64,000 bases of DNA from Acidobacteriaceae bacterium TAA 166. Its GTDB lineage: Bacteria > Acidobacteriota > Terriglobia > Terriglobales > Acidobacteriaceae. This document shows positions 5,942 to 56,241 of this stretch, in pieces. Each line of letters starts with the position of its first letter. Position 1 is the stretch's first letter. Where the stretch lies: NCBI GenBank assembly GCA_000421065.1, contig ATWD01000001.1, forward strand, positions 1,232,001 through 1,296,000, written 5' to 3'. Under the pieces are notes generated by a model. The model saw only the letters and a program-made list of their open reading frames with translations. It searched no databases and was not told where the DNA came from. The position numbers and the translations under genes were made by a program.

Positions 5942-7579
5942 CTACTTCGCGGCCAGAGCCAGCTGCTGCTGATATTCCTCGTACGGTCCCTTGTGATCGG
6001 TGATGTGGAAGTTGTCGGGGCCGCCTTCGAAGTGCCAGATGCGGGTTCCCGCCTCTTCGATCAGGTCCTGGTCGTGCGTGACCAGGAAGACGGTTCCCTC
6101 GTACTTCTGGATCGCCTGGTTGAGGGCGTTGATGCTCTCGAGGTCGAGATGATTCGTCGGCTCGTCAAGGACGAGGACGTTGGGCTTCTGCAGCATGATC
6201 TTGCAGAAGAGCAGGCGCGCGGCCTCGCCTCCGGAGAGCGCGTCGGTCTTCTTGTTGCCCTCTTCGCCGCGGAAGAGCATCTGGCCAAGGATGCCGCGGA
6301 TGTCCTCCTTGGTGGCCTGCGGGTCGAACTGGTGCAGCCAATCGGCGGCGGTCATTCCCAGGTGGATCGAACCCTTGTGATCCTGCGCGAAGTAGCCGAT
6401 CTGGGCCTCGTGGCCCCACTTCACCATGCCGGAGTCGATGGAGACGTCCTTCTCGTCGACGCCGGGAGCGTTGGCCAAGAGAGCCTTCAGCAGCGTGGTC
6501 TTGCCCTGGCCGTTACGGCCGATGAGGACGACCTTGTCGCCGCGCTGGACGGCCGCGGAGAAGTTGTTGATGACGTGCTCGATCTTTCCGTCGGGCTGAG
6601 CGTAGGACTTGTTGACGTTCTCGAACTCGAGAACATTTTTGCCCGAGGGGCGGATCATATCGAAGCGGATGAAGGGGCGCGCAATGTTGGAACGGGCGAG
6701 CTCGCTGGTGGCGAGGCGCTCGACCTCCTTCTTGCGCGAGTTCACCTGCGAGGACCGCGTACCGGCCGAGAAGCGGGCGATGAAGTCGTTGAGCTGAGCG
6801 ATCTTCTTTTCGCGCTGCTCATTCTGGCTCTCGATGCGGGTGCGGATGCTGGTCTTCTGAAGGACCATGTCGTCGTAGCCGCCGTTGTACGTGATGATGG
6901 TCTCGTAGTCGATGTCGGCGGTGTGGGTGCAGACATTGTTGAGGAAGTGGCGATCGTGGGAGATGGTGATGACCGTGCCGTTATAGCGATTGAGAAAGTC
7001 TTCGAGCCAGTGAATGGATTCGAGATCGAGATAGTTCGTAGGCTCGTCGAGGAGCAGGGCTTCGGGGTTGCCGAAGAGCGCCTGCGCCAGCAGGACACGG
7101 ACCTTCTGGCCGCCCTGCAACTCGCTCATCTTGCGCTCGTGGACCTCGTCGGGGATGTCGAGCCCCTGCAGCAGAACGGCGGCGTTGGCCTCGGCCTCGT
7201 AGCCGTCCTCGTCGCCGACGATGCCCTCGAGCTCGCCCAGGCGGGAGCCGTCCTCGTCGGTCAGCTCGGCCTTCTCGTAGATGCGCTCGCGCTCCTCGAG
7301 AGCCGCCCAGAGGGGCTTGTTGCCCATGATGACGGTGTCGATCACGCGATAGGCGTCGAACTCGTACTGGTTCTGCTTGAGGACGCCGATCTTTTTGGGG
7401 CGGACGACGGTTCCCTTCTGCGCGTCCAGCTCGCCGGTCAGCACCTTCATAAAGGTGGACTTGCCGGCTCCGTTCGGTCCGGTGAGGCCGTAACGACGGC
7501 CGGTGGTGAAGGTCACCGAAACATCCTCGAAGAGGAGCTTCGATCCGTAACGCATGGTGACATTGGAGACAGAGATCAT
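5942..7579 (-). CDS. ybiT: ABC-F family ATPase (YbiT-like)
   Basis: A 545-residue soluble protein with two ABC ATPase domains and no membrane segments, typical of ABC-F translation factors that act on the ribosomal E site. Domain 1 has Walker A GPNGAGKS (34-41), signature SELQGGQKVRV and Walker B ALLLDEPTNYLD. An interdomain linker rich in E, K and R follows (about 245-315). Domain 2 has Walker A GRNGQGKT, signature LSGGEAARL and Walker B VLVLDEPTNHLD. The start (NVTMRYGSKLLFEDVSV) and the VIDTVIMG segment resemble E. coli YbiT more than EttA or Uup. The exact role is unproven; a resistance-type ABC-F is possible but less likely. Confidence 0.9.
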   Translation of the reverse strand: MISVSNVTMRYGSKLLFEDVSVTFTTGRRYGLTGPNGAGKSTFMKVLTGELDAQKGTVVRPKKIGVLKQNQYEFDAYRVIDTVIMGNKPLWAALEERERIYEKAELTDEDGSRLGELEGIVGDEDGYEAEANAAVLLQGLDIPDEVHERKMSELQGGQKVRVLLAQALFGNPEALLLDEPTNYLDLESIHWLEDFLNRYNGTVITISHDRHFLNNVCTHTADIDYETIITYNGGYDDMVLQKTSIRTRIESQNEQREKKIAQLNDFIARFSAGTRSSQVNSRKKEVERLATSELARSNIARPFIRFDMIRPSGKNVLEFENVNKSYAQPDGKIEHVINNFSAAVQRGDKVVLIGRNGQGKTTLLKALLANAPGVDEKDVSIDSGMVKWGHEAQIGYFAQDHKGSIHLGMTAADWLHQFDPQATKEDIRGILGQMLFRGEEGNKKTDALSGGEAARLLFCKIMLQKPNVLVLDEPTNHLDLESINALNQAIQKYEGTVFLVTHDQDLIEEAGTRIWHFEGGPDNFHITDHKGPYEEYQQQLALAAK

Positions 7580-50139: not shown

Positions 50140-50673
50140 CTATCTCGCAGCCTTCTTTGCCGCAGGGCTCTTCGCTGCACTTTTGACGGAAGACTTCTTT
50201 GCAGCCGTCTCGCCGGCCCTGGTCCCCTTCGTCACGGTCTTCTTTGCAGCGCTCTTCTTCTCCGCCGTCTTTTTCGCTGCGGGCACAGACGGGAGCTTCG
50301 AGCGCTTGGAGTCATGGGACTTCATCAAACGATCGATCTGCTCGAGCAGCATCCGCGTATGCATCGGCTTCACCAGCATGCGGTCCGCTCCCATCTCCTG
50401 CCAGTCCTCTTCCGCCAGCGGAAAAGCCGTCAGCAGCGCCACCGCGGGCCGATACTCCGCCGAACGCGCGGCCGCGATCACGGCAGCCCCTGCCTGGTCG
50501 CTCTCCATGCGCATGTCGCTGATCACCATGTCGTACTGATGCGAACGCAGCTTCAGCTTTCCTTCGCGTCCCGAGGCGGCCGTATCCACATCGAAACCAT
50601 TAATCTCCAGCACAGCCTTGAGGGTCAGCAGTACCGCAACCTCATCATCGACCAGCAAAATACGCTTCTTCAT
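50140..50673 (-). CDS. Response-regulator receiver with a histone-H1-like Lys/Ala tail
   Basis: A 177-residue protein. The receiver domain (1-122) has the acidic pair D9 and D10 in ILLVDDE, phospho-acceptor D53 in VISDMRM, T82 in ALLTAF and K102 in MLVKPM, so phosphorylation chemistry looks intact. After about residue 125 there is no output domain but a roughly 50-residue Lys/Ala/Ser tail (PAAKKTAEKKSAAKKTVTKG and so on) resembling histone-H1-like or HU-type tails, which could bind DNA or RNA. The frame opens at 50718; ATG 50673 directly precedes the receiver. The role and the cognate kinase are unknown. Confidence 0.82.
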   Translation of the reverse strand: MKKRILLVDDEVAVLLTLKAVLEINGFDVDTAASGREGKLKLRSHQYDMVISDMRMESDQAGAAVIAAARSAEYRPAVALLTAFPLAEEDWQEMGADRMLVKPMHTRMLLEQIDRLMKSHDSKRSKLPSVPAAKKTAEKKSAAKKTVTKGTRAGETAAKKSSVKSAAKSPAAKKAAR

Positions 50674-50974
50674 CTTTTCTCTCTTCTCCCTGCCTGCAAC
50701 GCGATTCCCGCCACTCACTGTCCAGACATATCGTTCCTACAATATACAAAGCGCGGGAGACGGTGGGCCGCCGCGGTCCATCTCCACGGAACGCCTGCTC
50801 AAAGACAGCAGGTATAACAGTACGAAGCCTGCTTCCGGTGCCGCGAACCCCACCCGCTGTCGGCTCCCGTCCACGCATCATTCCAGGCTGAGTCTGCATC
50901 CTAAGAAGTGCTATACTTCAGCGTGCGGCGCCATCTTCAGGCCCCGACGCTAAACTTTAAAACAGAAACGCATG

Positions 50975-50992
50975 GCAGGCCCGTCGGCCTGC
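50975..50992 (+). promoter_or_regulatory. Leader hairpin just before the infC ribosome-binding site
   Basis: GCAGGCC (50975-50981), loop CGTC with flanking bases, and GGCCTGC (50986-50992) form a 7-bp perfect hairpin ending 3 nt before the GGAGG of infC. It may modulate initiation. A TATACT at 50912-50917 could be the infC -10 box. Confidence 0.45.
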
Positions 50993-51006
50993 TGTGGAGG
51001 CGACCT

Positions 51007-51615
51007 ATTCCACCGATCGATAAACGCTCCGCCAAGTCTTTCATCCGCACCAACGAACGAATCCGCGCCCGCGAAGTCCGCGTCATTGACGAAAACGGCG
51101 AGCAGCTCGGCGTCATGGCACCTTTCGAGGCCCTCAAGATGGCCCGCGAAAAGTCCCTCGATCTGGTAGAGATCTCCCCCAACGCCGTCCCTCCCGTCTG
51201 TAAGATTCAGGATTACGGCAAGTTCCTCTACGAGAAGGACAAGAGCGATCGCGCCGCCCGCAAGAAGCAGAAGGTCATCACCATCAAAGAGGTCAAGTTC
51301 TCCGTCACCGTCGACGAACACGATTACCAGACGAAGAAGAATCAGGCTGTGCGCTTTCTCAACGAGGGCGACAAGGTAAAGGCCTCCCTCCGCTTCAAGG
51401 GCCGTCAGATGGCCCACCGGGACCTGGGTTATAAGATCATTAACCGTCTCATCACGGATATCGGTGAGTCCGGCGTGGTCGAGTTCATGCCTCGCATGGA
51501 AGGCACCACCCTGCACGCGATCCTTGCTCCCTCGAAGAAGAGCGAGCCGGCGGTCAAAAAACCGGCAACGGCTCCCGTCAAGCCAGAGACCACCTCTCCC
51601 GCCGCGCAAGCCTAA
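51007..51615 (+). CDS. infC: Translation initiation factor IF-3 (apparent AUU start)
   Basis: A 202-residue IF-3, which binds the 30S subunit, prevents 50S joining and checks start codons. The N domain is SFIRTNERIRAREVRVIDENGEQLGVMAPFEALKMA-type sequence, followed by the linker KIQDYGKFLYEKDK and the C domain KEVKFSVTVDEHDYQTK...HRDLGYKIINRLI. No in-frame ATG lies near the start; a strong GGAGG (50996-51000) is 6 nt before ATT 51007. Non-canonical AUU starts are known for infC and allow autoregulation by IF-3. GTG 50908 is the only usual start codon upstream and would add 33 implausible residues. A short Ala/Pro/Lys tail follows the C domain. rpmI and rplT do not follow. Confidence 0.9.
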   Translation: MPPIDKRSAKSFIRTNERIRAREVRVIDENGEQLGVMAPFEALKMAREKSLDLVEISPNAVPPVCKIQDYGKFLYEKDKSDRAARKKQKVITIKEVKFSVTVDEHDYQTKKNQAVRFLNEGDKVKASLRFKGRQMAHRDLGYKIINRLITDIGESGVVEFMPRMEGTTLHAILAPSKKSEPAVKKPATAPVKPETTSPAAQA

Positions 51616-51624
51616 TGCCTGCCG

Positions 51625-51660
51625 AACGGCCTCCTATAAAAGGAGGCCGTTCTTCTTTTA
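51625..51660 (+). terminator. Rho-independent terminator of infC
   Basis: AACGGCCTCCT, loop ATAAA and AGGAGGCCGTT form an 11-bp perfect stem followed by CTTCTTTTA, 10 bp after the infC stop. Confidence 0.9.
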
Positions 51661-51962
51661 ATCTGCGCAACTGAATGACTCAGCAGGGTTTCTGGACTTA
51701 TCTCTCTTCCGGAAACACGCCTTCGCGCGCCTCTTTCCCCTCTCATTCAAGCCTTATCGCGGGCGCTGAAGAACAGTGCTCAGCCTGCCCTCGTTCGCTT
51801 TTACATGCGAGGGGTTGCCGGCGCGAACTTTTCAGGCTAAGTAATCAAGTTTCGCAGCAATCAGGTCTCCAAAGCTATTGAATCCCTTCTCGCCACCCTG
51901 AAACCAAGTCCATTACGTCAGTAACAGAAGATCTTAAATATATTCACATATAACTCATTTTA

Positions 51963-51992
51963 TTGGACTTATTTCTAGTCAGATCATATGTT
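51963..51992 (+). promoter_or_regulatory. Candidate promoter of the peptide array
   Basis: TTGGAC (51963-51968) and TATGTT (51987-51992), spacer 18 bp, lie in a markedly A+T-rich stretch about 60 nt before the first peptide gene. Confidence 0.4.
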
Positions 51993-52052
51993 TACTCCAG
52001 TCGCCTTGTCCAGTGAAAAAAAATGCAAGGTCGATAAAAACAGGAGTTTTTT

Positions 52053-52220
52053 ATGAACCTTCCGGTCCGTCTTGCTGTTATTGCTCTCGTTCTCACTGGT
52101 GTGTTTGCTTCCTCCAAGACCCAAGCCGCCTCTGTCAGCACGATCACGTTCGTCCGCAACAGCGCCCTACCCACTCCCATGTGCGCTCCCGATGATCCCA
52201 ACGCCTGCGGTCTCCGCTAA
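52053..52220 (+). CDS. Small secreted two-Cys peptide, copy 1 (diverged)
   Basis: A 55-residue preprotein. The signal peptide (MNLPVRLAVIALVLTGVFAS, cleavage likely after TQA about residue 25) is followed by a mature part of about 30 residues. It differs from the four downstream copies in the leader and at SVSTITFVRN, but the core SALPTPMCAPDDPNACG is identical. It ends in LR, without the ARGRK tail. The two Cys (C44, C52) bracket a 7-residue acidic-Pro loop and could form a disulfide in the periplasm or outside. CAGGAG lies 6 nt before the ATG. I do not recognise the family. Confidence 0.85.
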   Translation: MNLPVRLAVIALVLTGVFASSKTQAASVSTITFVRNSALPTPMCAPDDPNACGLR

Positions 52221-52267
52221 GGGTCGACGTTAGTTCCTAAATTTATTACTTCCCAGGAGATATCCCC

Positions 52268-52450
52268 ATGAAGCTCGTATCCCGCATCGCCATCGCCGCC
52301 GCCTTCGTCCTCACCGCCGCCTTCACCTCCACCCAGGTCTCGGCCGCTTCCGCCAACAAGATCACCATCGCCCGTGACAGCGCCCTGCCCACCCCCATGT
52401 GCGCTCCCGACGATCCCAACGCCTGCGGTATGGCTCGTGGCCGTAAATAA
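52268..52450 (+). CDS. Small secreted two-Cys peptide, copy 2
   Basis: A 60-residue preprotein. It starts MKLVSRIAIAAAFVLTAAFT with a classic Sec signal peptide; cleavage is predicted after VSA (residue 26). The mature peptide of about 34 residues includes ANKITIARDS, then the core ALPTPMCAPDDPNACG (C45, C53) and the basic tail MARGRK. CAGGAGAT lies upstream. It differs from copies 3-5 only at residues 3-4 of the leader (LV in place of SI) and at A29 (shared with copy 3). The function is unknown; a disulfide-looped signalling, toxin-like or surface peptide are all possible. Confidence 0.88.
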   Translation: MKLVSRIAIAAAFVLTAAFTSTQVSAASANKITIARDSALPTPMCAPDDPNACGMARGRK

Positions 52451-52484
52451 CCAATAAGTTTTTTATCCCCAAGGAGATTTCCCC

Positions 52485-52667
52485 ATGAAGAGCATCTCTC
52501 GCATCGCCATCGCCGCCGCCTTCGTCCTCACCGCCGCCTTCACCTCCACCCAGGTCTCGGCCGCTTCCGCCAACAAGATCACCATCGCCCGTGACAGCGC
52601 CCTGCCCACCCCCATGTGCGCTCCCGATGATCCCAATGCCTGCGGTATGGCTCGCGGCCGTAAATAA
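52485..52667 (+). CDS. Small secreted two-Cys peptide, copy 3
   Basis: A 60-residue preprotein (MKSISRIAIAAAFVLTAAFT leader). The mature part has A29 as in copy 2. The core PTPMCAPDDPNACG and tail MARGRK are unchanged. AAGGAG lies 9 nt before the ATG. Synonymous differences from copy 2 (GATGAT, AATGCC, CGCGGC) with no change in the mature peptide suggest purifying selection on the peptide. Confidence 0.88.
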   Translation: MKSISRIAIAAAFVLTAAFTSTQVSAASANKITIARDSALPTPMCAPDDPNACGMARGRK

Positions 52668-52702
52668 CCAATAAGTTTTTTATTCCCCAAGGAGATTTCC
52701 CC

Positions 52703-52885
52703 ATGAAGAGCATCTCTCGCATCGCCATCGCCGCCGCCTTCGTCCTCACCGCCGCCTTCACCTCTACCCAGGTCTCGGCAGCTTCCACCAACAAGATCAC
52801 CATCGCCCGTGACAGCGCCCTGCCCACCCCCATGTGCGCTCCCGATGATCCCAATGCCTGCGGTATGGCTCGCGGCCGTAAATAA
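52703..52885 (+). CDS. Small secreted two-Cys peptide, copy 4
   Basis: A 60-residue preprotein identical to copy 3 except A29T (mature segment STNKITIARD). The spacer and Shine-Dalgarno are the same as before copy 3. The nucleotide sequence of the 5' two thirds is shared with copy 5 (CTCTACCCAGGTCTCGGCAG), which points to a very recent duplication. Confidence 0.88.
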   Translation: MKSISRIAIAAAFVLTAAFTSTQVSAASTNKITIARDSALPTPMCAPDDPNACGMARGRK

Positions 52886-52920
52886 CCAATAAGTTTTTTA
52901 TTCCCCAAGGAGATTTCCCC

Positions 52921-53103
52921 ATGAAGAGCATCTCTCGCATCGCCATCGCCGCCGCCTTCGTCCTCACCGCCGCCTTCACCTCTACCCAGGTCTCGGCAGC
53001 TTCCACCAACAAGATCACCATCGCCCGAGACAGTGCTCTGCCCACCCCCATGTGCGCTCCCGACGATCCCAACGCCTGCGGTATGGCTCGTGGCCGTAAA
53101 TAA
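52921..53103 (+). CDS. Small secreted two-Cys peptide, copy 5
   Basis: A 60-residue preprotein, same protein as copy 4. Its DNA is a mosaic: the first part follows copy 4, the end (GACGATCCCAACGCC, CGTGGC) follows copy 2, with private silent changes between (CGAGACAGTGCTCTG). It ends the array; a long hairpin follows 5 bp after the stop. Confidence 0.88.
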   Translation: MKSISRIAIAAAFVLTAAFTSTQVSAASTNKITIARDSALPTPMCAPDDPNACGMARGRK

Positions 53104-53107
53104 GTCG

Positions 53108-53158
53108 CCTTGGGGAGATGGTGAATTCAATATGTATTTTTTTGCACAATCTCCCCAA
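53108..53158 (+). terminator. Long hairpin at the end of the peptide array
   Basis: TTGGGGAGAT (53110-53119) and ATCTCCCCAA (53149-53158) pair perfectly around a 29-nt loop with a T-run inside it. There is no T-run after the stem, so it may be a 3'-protective or regulatory structure rather than a classical terminator. Confidence 0.5.
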
Positions 53159-53227
53159 ATAGATGTTGTCTGCCAATCTGCGATGGGCTAGCCTATCTAG
53201 TAAGGTTTGTCCTGCGGAGAAGGACAC

Positions 53228-54169
53228 ATGGCGCACAATTTTCTTCTTCTGGATCTGTTGTCTTATCTCGAGCCGATGTTCTGCGTTTTAGCGTTAGTCA
53301 CGCTTTTACGCAGCAAGGCCGCAGGAAGTTTTGTTTATCTGGTTGCCCTCCTCTCTGTAAAGATTGGATCGTCGCTTATCTGTCTGCCATTGCTTTACTT
53401 CTGCAATCGGGGTATCGAATGGCATGTGGCCTATCAGGTTTATTTTTACGTTTATTGGATCAGCTACGCTTTTGAAGCCATCCTGTCCCTGATGGTCATC
53501 TACAGCATCTTCAAGCTGGCGATGGCTCCTCTCAAAGGACTGCAAACGCTGGGAACGCTGGTCTTTCGATGGGTTGCCGTCATTTCGATCGCGGTGGCGA
53601 TCGGTGTCGCGCTGAATCCCCACATGACCGGCGTCAAGTTCATGGTGGCCATGGTCACGCAGCTTCAGCAGACCTCCAGCATCCTGACACTGTGCCTTCT
53701 CTTGTTTGTCTGCTTCGCGGTTCGCCCCATGGGGCTGTCTTACAGAAGCCGCATCTTCGGAGTTGCATTCGGGCTTGGCTTCTTAGCTACGACCGATCTG
53801 GTTCGTGCCGCATGGCTCTCCCGCAGCTCCGACATGAACTCCACAGTGAATATCGTCAGCGGAATCTCCATCTGCCTTACACTCTGCATCTGGTCGACCT
53901 ACTTCGCCTTCCCCGAGGAGAAGCGGCGCCTGATCGTCCTTCCAACAACCTCGCCCTTCCTTCGCTGGAACCAGATCTCCATGGCACTGGGCGATGAGCC
54001 CGGTTACGTCGCGGTGGGTGGAATTCCTCCCGAGCTCTTTGCTCCTGCTGAGCTCGAGGTGATGCGTCGCGCCTCGGAGAAGATGACGTCTTCCCACGAG
54101 CTTCCCGCCGATTCTTCGGGAAATCCCGCCATCGGCGGATCCAGCTCCATGCGCTCCATTCCCGCTTAG
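53228..54169 (+). CDS. Seven-helix membrane protein of unknown function
   Basis: A 313-residue integral membrane protein with about seven hydrophobic helices (first YLEPMFCVLALVTLL, last ISICLTLCIWSTYFAF) and a roughly 85-residue soluble C-terminal tail (from PEEKRRLIVLPTTSPFLRWNQISMAL onward) ending in a Ser/Pro/Gly-rich stretch. I recognise no catalytic motif; proteins of this shape seem to be a paralogous acidobacterial family. GGAGAAGG lies 5 nt before ATG 53228, seven codons inside the longest frame. It follows the peptide array by 125 bp on the same strand, so it may be a partner, but this is only positional. Confidence 0.8.
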   Translation: MAHNFLLLDLLSYLEPMFCVLALVTLLRSKAAGSFVYLVALLSVKIGSSLICLPLLYFCNRGIEWHVAYQVYFYVYWISYAFEAILSLMVIYSIFKLAMAPLKGLQTLGTLVFRWVAVISIAVAIGVALNPHMTGVKFMVAMVTQLQQTSSILTLCLLLFVCFAVRPMGLSYRSRIFGVAFGLGFLATTDLVRAAWLSRSSDMNSTVNIVSGISICLTLCIWSTYFAFPEEKRRLIVLPTTSPFLRWNQISMALGDEPGYVAVGGIPPELFAPAELEVMRRASEKMTSSHELPADSSGNPAIGGSSSMRSIPA

Positions 54170-54255
54170 TTCTTCCGCTTCTCATTGTGCTCTTTCGACA
54201 GCCTCTTTGTGCTCTGTCGACAGACTCGACCGATTTCAATCGCTCGAGGAAACAG

Positions 54256-54288
54256 AAAGGCCGCCCGGTTAGGGCGGCCTTCTTATTT
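54256..54288. terminator. Bidirectional terminator between the 7-TM gene and rpsA
   Basis: AAGGCCGCCC, loop GGTTA and GGGCGGCCTT form a 10-bp perfect stem. T-rich sequence follows on both strands (CTTATTT on plus, TCTGTTT on minus). Confidence 0.85.
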
Positions 54289-54306
54289 AGTTGCGATTCA
54301 AGAGGA

Positions 54307-56241
54307 TTACTCGCCGAACTCCGAACGCTTCCAGTTGATGAGATCGCCCAGAGTCGTGCTGCTCGAAGAAGAGGACGACGAGGAGGAACCCTTGTGGTCG
54401 CGCTCCTTGTAGCTCTCCACCTCGGCGCGGCTGGCCTCTTCGCCCACAGCGCGGATGCTCAGGCCGACCTTCTTCTCGTCCTGGTTCATCTTCACGATGC
54501 GGAACTCATGTTCGTCGCCGACATCGAGCTTCACCGGGGTGCCATGTTCGTCCACGGCCTCGGAGATGTGGCAGAGCCCCTCGACTCCCTCGGCGATCTC
54601 GACGAAGGCGCCGAACTGCGCCGTGCGCAGGACCTTGCCCTTGATGACATCGCCCACGCGGTGCTGCGCGAAGAAGGTATCCCAGACATCGGGCTGCAGC
54701 TGCTTGACGCCCAGCGACAGGCGCCGGTTCTCGGGCTCAACGCCCAGAACAACAGCCTTGACCTTCTCGCCTTTCTTCAGGACCTCGGAGGGGTGCTTGA
54801 TGCGCTTGGTCCAGCTCAGGTTCGAGACGTGAACCAGGCCATCGATGCCATCCTCAATCTCGATGAAGGCGCCGAAGTCGGTCAGGTTGCGGACGCGGCC
54901 CTCGATCACAGCACCGGTCGGGTACTTGTCCTCGAGCTGCTCCCACGGATTCTCCTGAAGCTGCTTCATGCCCAGCGAGATGCGGCGGTCGTTGGGGTTG
55001 ACGCTCAGGATGATGGTATCCACCTCGTCGCCGGGCTTGACCATCTTCGACGGATGCTTCATCCGCTTGGACCAGGTCATCTCGGAGACGTGAACCAGAC
55101 CCTCGATGCCCTGCTCGAGCTCGACGAAGGCGCCGTAGTCGGTGACCGAAAGGACGCGGCCGCGAACCTGCGCACCGATCGGGTAGCGCTCAGTGGCGTC
55201 GAGCCACGGGTCAGGCGTCAGTTGCTTGAAGCCGAGCGAGACGCGCTGCTTGTCCTTGTCGAACTTCAGCACCTTCACCTGGATCTCGTCGCCGACGTTG
55301 ACTAGGTCGCGGGGATGCGTCAGACGGCCCCAGCTCATATCGGTAATATGGAGCAGGCCGTCGAGGCCGCCCAGATCGACGAATGCGCCGTAGTCGGTCA
55401 AGTTCTTGACGGTTCCGGTCAGCACGCTGCCCTCTTCGAGCGTCGCCAGCGTCACCGACTTCTTCTCGTTCTGCTCCTCTTCGAGCAGCTCCTTGCGGCT
55501 GATGACGACGTTTCCGCGCTTCTTGTTCAGCTTGATGACGCGGACTTCGATCTCGGTTCCGATGTAGCCGTCCAGGTTGCGGACGGGACGAATCTCGACC
55601 TGCGATCCGGGCAGGAACGCCTTGATGCCGATGTCGACGGTCAGGCCTCCCTTGACGCGACTGAGAACCATTCCCTTGACGGGAACCTTCTCGTTGGCCG
55701 CGGCCTCGAGCTTGTCCCACACCTTGTGGCGCAGAGCCTTCTCGTAGCTGACCAGGTAGCCGCCACCCTCGGACTCCTCACGCTCAACGACGACCTCAAC
55801 CTGGTCGCCGGGCTGGAACTTGGGAGCGCCGTTGATATCCAGCACCTGTTCCAGAGGAATGAGACCTTCAGACTTGAGCCCAATATCGATAACAACATGC
55901 TTGTCCGTGATCTTGACGACTGTGCCAGTGACGATGGCTTCCTCAGCGGTCAGGCTCTGCGCGGCTGCGGATTCGGCCGCCTGTTCGCGGTCGAAGTTCG
56001 CCAACGCCTCGGCAAAGTCGGCGGAGTCGTAATCGGGCTCGTGCTCAACGGCGGCTTCGAACTCGGTCGCGACGGCGACCGGGTGCTCGATGGACTCGCT
56101 CTGAGCGATCTCATGCTGCTGGTTAGGGGTGGATTCAGAAGACAGCTCGACGTTCTCAGCTGTCGCTTCGTGCGCTAGGACTTCCAGTTCGGTGGTCAGG
56201 GGTTTGCTCTCGGTTGGATCGAAATGATGGTTATCGGCCAT
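54307..56241 (-). CDS. rpsA: 30S ribosomal protein S1
   Basis: A 644-residue S1 with six S1 (OB-fold) repeats, which helps the 30S subunit bind and unfold mRNA. The repeats are seen as GTVVKITDKHVVIDIG, GMVLSRVKGGLTVDIG, GTVKNLTDYGAFVDLGGLDG, GRVLSVTDYGAFVELEQGIEG, GRVRNLTDFGAFIEIEDGIDG and GKVLRTAQFGAFVEIAEGVEG. An acidic N-terminal extension of about 95 residues precedes the first repeat. A run of ten Ser lies near the C-terminus (KGSSSSSSSSSS), followed by TTLGDLINWKRSEFGE. The frame opens at 56448; ATG 56241 is chosen because the extra 69 residues read as untranslated leader. Confidence 0.94.
   Translation of the reverse strand: MADNHHFDPTESKPLTTELEVLAHEATAENVELSSESTPNQQHEIAQSESIEHPVAVATEFEAAVEHEPDYDSADFAEALANFDREQAAESAAAQSLTAEEAIVTGTVVKITDKHVVIDIGLKSEGLIPLEQVLDINGAPKFQPGDQVEVVVEREESEGGGYLVSYEKALRHKVWDKLEAAANEKVPVKGMVLSRVKGGLTVDIGIKAFLPGSQVEIRPVRNLDGYIGTEIEVRVIKLNKKRGNVVISRKELLEEEQNEKKSVTLATLEEGSVLTGTVKNLTDYGAFVDLGGLDGLLHITDMSWGRLTHPRDLVNVGDEIQVKVLKFDKDKQRVSLGFKQLTPDPWLDATERYPIGAQVRGRVLSVTDYGAFVELEQGIEGLVHVSEMTWSKRMKHPSKMVKPGDEVDTIILSVNPNDRRISLGMKQLQENPWEQLEDKYPTGAVIEGRVRNLTDFGAFIEIEDGIDGLVHVSNLSWTKRIKHPSEVLKKGEKVKAVVLGVEPENRRLSLGVKQLQPDVWDTFFAQHRVGDVIKGKVLRTAQFGAFVEIAEGVEGLCHISEAVDEHGTPVKLDVGDEHEFRIVKMNQDEKKVGLSIRAVGEEASRAEVESYKERDHKGSSSSSSSSSSTTLGDLINWKRSEFGE

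Follow-up and report, generated by a model that had tools for sequence, protein, structure and literature searches.

A putative peptide pheromone cassette in the Acidobacteriota: tandem genes for two-cysteine peptides linked to a predicted seven-helix membrane protein

Few soil bacteria are as abundant, or as poorly understood, as the Acidobacteriota, whose intercellular signalling is to our knowledge largely unknown. In agr and ComX/ComP-type systems, a peptide is sensed by a multi-helix membrane receptor encoded alongside it; in yeast, alpha-factor and Ste2 combine a multi-copy secreted precursor with a seven-transmembrane (7TM) receptor; the receptors of RRNPPA systems are cytoplasmic, and their peptides are re-imported; and SecM and MifM are arrest leaders. 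Propeptides carrying several pheromone copies exist among RRNPPA systems (PMC11343458). In a 64,000-nucleotide (nt) stretch of Acidobacteriaceae bacterium TAA 166 (contig ATWD01000001.1, positions 1,232,001 to 1,296,000), which as a whole is called the window here, five tandem genes for small two-cysteine peptides directly precede a gene for a predicted 7TM protein. With a probability of roughly 0.6, we interpret these genes as encoding a peptide pheromone and its private 7TM receptor, since this reading jointly accounts for the linkage of the two genes, the multi-copy precursors, the polarity of the 7TM protein and the co-variation of the two partners.

The five preprotein open reading frames (ORFs) lie in a row (52053-53103) between infC and rpsA, and the 7TM gene follows them.

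52053..52220, + strand: peptide precursor 1, 55 amino acids (aa), diverged leader; core at 52161-52211
52268..52450, + strand: peptide precursor 2, 60 aa; core at 52379-52429
52485..52667, + strand: peptide precursor 3, 60 aa; core at 52596-52646
52703..52885, + strand: peptide precursor 4, 60 aa; core at 52814-52864
52921..53103, + strand: peptide precursor 5, 60 aa; core at 53032-53082
53228..54169, + strand: 7TM gene, 313 aa, seven predicted helices, N-out/C-in, conserved cytoplasmic tail; proposed receptor

The core SALPTPMCAPDDPNACG consists of the same residues in all five copies, and each copy has a predicted Sec-type leader, judged by its pattern of K/R, a hydrophobic stretch and an A-x-A-like site. 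An AGGAG motif is located 6-8 nt 5' of the ATG in copies 1-3 (read base by base), and the stretch upstream of copies 4 and 5 repeats that of copy 3. Tandem Repeats Finder resolved the array as a repeat of period 218 with 4.3 copies and 94% matches. In region 37-53, copy 1 is separated from the other copies by 3-5 synonymous changes, the sole nonsynonymous change being a D/N immediately ahead of the core. ORF and repeat analyses hence bear out the description in an earlier note on this DNA, which had reported five tandem preproteins with signal-like leaders, their own Shine-Dalgarno sequences and an identical core shared by a diverged first copy; the extent it gave (52053..53103) is right for the array, and the unit reaches one gene further. 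An origin of the array by chance or misreading is ruled out by ORF, repeat and homologue evidence.

Neither the peptides nor the 7TM protein matched a named protein family above cut-off in Pfam and NCBIfam, in agreement with the earlier claim that the core belongs to no named family, and Rfam returned no gathering match in 50500-54500. Searches of titles and abstract openings in the open-licence literature yielded nothing on the peptide, the 7TM family or such a pairing. The peptide and the 7TM protein are best read as two undescribed families, and the system is rated as new in kind because neither component can be named as a family and nothing on it was encountered in that literature.

The 7TM gene had been overlooked in the earlier note, and it narrows the four functions left open there (signalling, self-recognition, antagonism and surface coating) to one favoured function. 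A 7TM gene is present on the same strand, directly downstream of the peptide genes, in 58 of 62 peptide loci from 13 genera (57/61 distinct places, L010 and L077 being one place), with a gap of 60-143 nt in 54 of the 58 linked loci. The cassette is situated between infC and rpsA in many members of the window's genus; in the majority of loci from other genera the pair persists although neither infC nor the trp genes, and often not rpsA either, were found nearby. Three of the exceptions to linkage (L074, L092 and L110) are contig ends, and one (L082) is genuine. Locus L082, in genome G029, contains one truncated and one intact peptide copy with no 7TM gene within 6 kb downstream, and the same genome carries a complete cassette (L083).

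A small secreted-type peptide encoded beside a membrane protein would also suit antagonism, with the peptide acting as a bacteriocin-like inhibitor to which the 7TM protein confers immunity, and the existence of proline-rich multi-copy precursors among insect antimicrobial peptides can be counted in its favour. We consider this explanation unlikely. The locus is retained vertically, occupying the infC-rpsA interval in many members of the genus, and PADLOC provided no meaningful match: a defence system was rejected, the only match for the peptide (REase_II, E=0.033) being taken as noise. In addition, the PxPxC..C loop of the peptides is acidic, with a mean net charge of -1.32 in 93 precursors, although over the entire mature part the mean is +0.98.

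A protein search with a threshold of E<=1 identified 105 related proteins, those of the window among them. At E<=0.01, the window protein matched 34 of 61 relatives' genomes, 33 of which belong to its genus; the lone weak match outside the genus (G050, L117) was not confirmed, and within the genus 33 of 37 genomes, own included, presented a peptide match. The search for homologous small ORFs advocated in the earlier note was productive, with matches to peptide profile A1 in 38/200 family genomes and 14/79 genera. In Edaphobacter modestus DSM 18101 (L009) the array occupies the same genomic place as in the window, whose genus is probably also Edaphobacter, and a remnant of an extra core (CAPDDPK...) at about 7105-7219, 3' of the fifth copy, indicates that array copies are born and lost. 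Using a cut-off of 1e-5, which leaves the fourth copy of L114 just outside, the 62 loci contain 1 (38 loci), 2 (8), 3 (9), 4 (4), 5 (2) or 6 (1) peptide copies, and copy numbers from draft genomes are lower bounds, because contigs or N gaps break inside arrays (L087 (G033), L074, L092 and L066). The high gene dosage emphasised in the earlier note is therefore a tendency only, seen as 2-6 copies at 24/62 loci, with single copies at 38/62.

Sequence features of the family point to a constrained, putatively disulfide-looped peptide. Exactly two cysteines beyond residue 22 were found in all 96 intact distinct precursors, two further rows cut by contig ends being outside this set, and the loop between them spans 7 (81 precursors), 6 (8), 5 (3), 4 (3) or 8 (1) residues, with core variants such as CPPDDPNACGM, CTPGIPTC and CEPGSSTCGF. 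The ratio of nonsynonymous to synonymous substitution (dN/dS) in 69 precursors of the window's genus was 0.14 in the core, versus 0.37 in the leader and 0.64 in the linker. Both the two-cysteine character and the constraint on the core proposed in the earlier note are thus substantiated. A K or R is present exactly 9 residues N-terminal of the first cysteine in 60/96 precursors, and within any 4-residue window there in 69/96, as against 381/665 control windows; this residue is only a hint of a putative cleavage site.

If the peptide is a ligand, its core is expected to track the outer face of the 7TM protein. Partial Mantel tests within the genus (n=32) gave a coefficient of 0.476 (p 0.001) for the core with the periplasmic side given the cytoplasmic side, and of -0.081 (p 0.76) for the core with the cytoplasmic side given the periplasmic side. 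The leader displayed the opposite behaviour (-0.225 with the periplasmic and 0.376 with the cytoplasmic side). When each of seven neighbour genes was introduced as an extra control (n 13-29), the coefficient of the core with the periplasmic side ranged from 0.455 to 0.642 (p<=0.002), and that of the leader from -0.21 to -0.37. Two points qualify these results. Across all 53 loci the core co-varied with the periplasmic side at 0.386 (p 0.001) and with the cytoplasmic side at 0.155 (p 0.036), and the latter side is hence not silent; moreover, the partial Mantel test is liberal on tree data, which makes the contrast between core and leader the stronger point.

Co-variation of the core with the outer face also fits a toxin-immunity pair. 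Together with the steady linkage, it is equally expected of a stable small subunit; the peptide, rather than diffusing, would then serve a 7TM transporter or enzyme in the periplasm, as a cofactor or a structural partner. This arrangement appears very unlikely, as arrays of several genes and cores repeated within a precursor favour surplus release over 1:1 assembly, and no His, Asp, Glu or Cys is found among the invariant residues of the 7TM protein (G, W, F, Y and S). A role of the 7TM protein as a peptide protease or transporter was rejected, there being no conserved catalytic-type residues or triad.

The distribution of conservation along the 7TM protein is receptor-like, with a variable outer and a constrained inner face. 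In 56 sequences, the mean entropy of the periplasmic side was 2.14 in helix halves and 2.58 in loops, versus 1.49 and 1.59 on the cytoplasmic side and 1.36 in the cytoplasmic tail (p=1.5e-8). The tail is thus the best-conserved part of the protein, which argues against antagonism. Confident structure models (predicted local distance difference test, pLDDT, 83.2 and 91.4) correspond to bundles resembling G protein-coupled receptors (GPCRs) and rhodopsins; the best structural matches were GPCRs and microbial rhodopsins, below Foldseek significance, and the absence of a family from the fold-match lists is no ground for its exclusion. No Pfam 7tm family matched any of five 7TM proteins scanned or that of L185, and a PDB sequence search with the 7TM protein returned no match beyond kinase noise. 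Assignment to the microbial rhodopsins was discarded, helix 7 (206-227) of the window protein being without the retinal-binding Lys.

Three further elements of the window define the probable layout of expression.

51624..51652, + strand: terminator-like hairpin after infC (consensus match), likely upstream limit of the unit
53104..53227, + strand: structured spacer from array to 7TM gene, with inverted repeat TTGGGGAGAT...ATCTCCCCAA; z -3.26 versus shuffles
54256..54282, both strands: terminator-like hairpin between the 7TM gene and rpsA (consensus match), likely downstream limit of the unit

Since terminator-like hairpins flank both ends, the array and the 7TM gene are probably carried on one transcript. 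Folding of the spacer in 53 loci gave a mean z of -2.46 versus shuffles, with 30/53 below -2, and the ribosome site of the 7TM gene was more paired than with shuffled upstream sequence (0.215 versus 0.363 unpaired); the window's own site presented no such difference (0.26 and 0.26). Translational control of the 7TM gene by the spacer RNA is possible. Such tight spacer RNA with a more paired ribosome site, preceded by signal-peptide ORFs of 50-60 codons with proline-rich ends immediately ahead of a single gene, could also denote regulatory leaders, namely SecM/MifM-like translation-arrest ORFs that sense export and control the 7TM gene. We regard this as highly improbable. When a ribosome was modelled as halted at the final codons of the peptide, the 7TM ribosome site was not freed (mean gain 0.00; >0.1 in 1/53 loci), a result that tells against arrest leaders and agrees with an excess of ligand over receptor. 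Up to six complete genes, or up to five cores per ORF, would be useless for arrest, and both the retention of two cysteines in 96/96 precursors while the loop varies from 4 to 8 residues and the tracking of the periplasmic face by the core are at odds with it.

Neighbouring genes in other clades provide candidates for the output side of the proposed pheromone-receptor system. A protein of 175-192 aa without a Pfam name, bearing one N-terminal hydrophobic stretch (by eye), is encoded 3' of the 7TM gene at L119, L153, L158, L182 and L185. A helix-turn-helix (HTH)-like gene precedes or adjoins the cassette at the last four of these loci, which again disfavours antagonism; Pfam HTH_31 was above cut-off for L182 only (27.6 bits), and we take the C-terminal half of the HTH-like protein to be reminiscent of S24/LexA, for which Pfam gives no support. 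At L185, an HD-GYP response regulator is encoded downstream. The window clade is devoid of these partner, HTH and HD-GYP neighbours and presents a longer conserved cytoplasmic tail, which may constitute its signal output.

The 7TM family has three members in the genome of the window, and all three are preceded by small signal-peptide ORFs. One of the two paralogues has its own array.

G000:C1:1913827 region, L119 384-1367 and 1405-2187: second five-gene array before a 7TM paralogue; a 175-aa partner gene follows

The mature part encoded by this array, TLSGSDPRPNFSSQSTYLYAAMAVLGY or near it, is Cys-free, with the core TLSGSDPRPNFSxQSTYLYAAMAVLGY. The third member (C1:1516678) has one upstream ORF, with the C-terminal end ...TGTDPVPPSHPGGHATATTTTIATILGVLYGVVL. 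The 7TM profiles A2 and A3 identified family members in 38/101 genomes in a class search and in 19/119 in a phylum search, supplying loci selected by the 7TM gene alone. An automatic test for precursors (30-130 aa, basic N-terminus, hydrophobic stretch, Shine-Dalgarno sequence and a stop 20-150 nt upstream) was positive at 29 of 49 such loci. Four further loci (L168, L170, L191 and L208) have precursors recognised by eye, bringing the number to 33/49, and no precursor ORF was detected by either means at the remaining 16. Among other genes in the fetched stretches, the test was positive in 8/552, or 22/552 under a looser hydrophobicity cut. This null set comprises ORFs of >=150 aa from a simple caller, part of which are likely artefacts that may depress the null rate, and it has nothing equivalent to the by-eye additions. 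Left out of the 49 loci are L122 and L138 as repeats, L211, L222 and L217 as cases at contig ends, orthologues from the genus that the peptide count already covers (L124-L137 and similar) and unfetched profile matches; the 49 include the near-identical L154 and L155, and L208 and L221 from the same genome. A precursor figure of 61/81 was partly circular, with loci picked by peptide, and is not used. Among the loci examined outside class Terriglobia, a precursor was visible at L208 only.

In 8 of the 33 precursors, the core is repeated within one ORF, in 2-5 units.

L163 (G068): five NMPVFPTPPAVKTA-like units in one precursor
L168 (G303): four ADGG(L/S)PMPPP(P) units in one precursor
L191 (G054): three AAGPWPFPDDSAGGNI units in one precursor
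L208 (G380): three DGMTGIPP units in one precursor
L169, L183, L185 and L187: two ADG-proline units per precursor

At other loci the whole gene is multiplied instead (five copies at L119, four at L161), and tandem genes and internal repeats both yield many copies of a short peptide per 7TM gene. A mature form of about 30-34 residues, as suggested in the earlier note, may be an overestimate, given that precursors of other clades carry internal repeats of no more than a short core.

These observations outline a mechanism in which the array and the adjoining 7TM gene would form one peptide-signalling cassette. The leader would be removed during Sec export, the two cysteines would close a loop of 4-8 residues, and the core, perhaps released by additional cleavage, would bind the periplasmic face of the 7TM protein. 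The signal would exit via the conserved cytoplasmic tail or, in other clades, perhaps via the one-helix partner encoded next to it. Tandem genes or intra-precursor repeats would raise ligand output, and the structured spacer would hold receptor output low. More tentatively, and with somewhat less than even confidence, bacteria may possess a pheromone-7TM signalling class of their own. Acidobacteriota would secrete short peptides, proline-rich or closed by a disulfide loop, from tandem genes or alpha-factor-like multi-copy precursors, and a stand-alone GPCR-like receptor private to each peptide would be encoded next door to sense it, with several insulated pairs coexisting in a genome. If the pheromone-receptor interpretation is correct, this would be cell-to-cell signalling of a kind not known in bacteria, in which bacteria would combine multi-copy precursors with a 7TM peptide receptor standing on its own, in what is otherwise a yeast-mating arrangement. 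Both halves of a communication system would be in hand, with sequences open to synthesis and swapping, and ligand-receptor specificity would be testable from sequence alone. Function aside, two undescribed gene families sharing one module are now defined.

Comparison with the systems outlined at the outset places the cassette apart from each of them. With SecM and MifM it shares a signal-peptide ORF directly ahead of a membrane-related gene and a structured spacer, and it differs in its tandem and internally repeated cores and in a modelled stall that leaves the ribosome site closed. Rap-Phr of the Bacillota has a small exported propeptide encoded next to its receptor (PMC11343458), a likeness to the present locus. 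The differences here are a predicted 7TM membrane partner, co-variation with the periplasmic face and a Gram-negative-type host in the Acidobacteriota; no Pfam tetratricopeptide repeat (TPR) match indicative of an RRNPPA-type receptor was found, the adjoining gene being the predicted 7TM gene. The agr and ComX/ComP systems likewise place a peptide gene beside that of a multi-helix membrane protein, whereas the cassette has a Sec-type leader and no processing protease, and no Pfam kinase match indicative of an agr-type histidine kinase was obtained for the 7TM protein or for neighbouring ORFs in the window. The likeness to alpha-factor and Ste2 encompasses both the multi-copy precursor and the N-out/C-in 7TM protein, and the Ste2 structure (7ad3) ranked 13 and 4 in two structural-match lists, below significance; the cassette differs from this yeast system in that no sequence homology is detectable and no G protein was seen.
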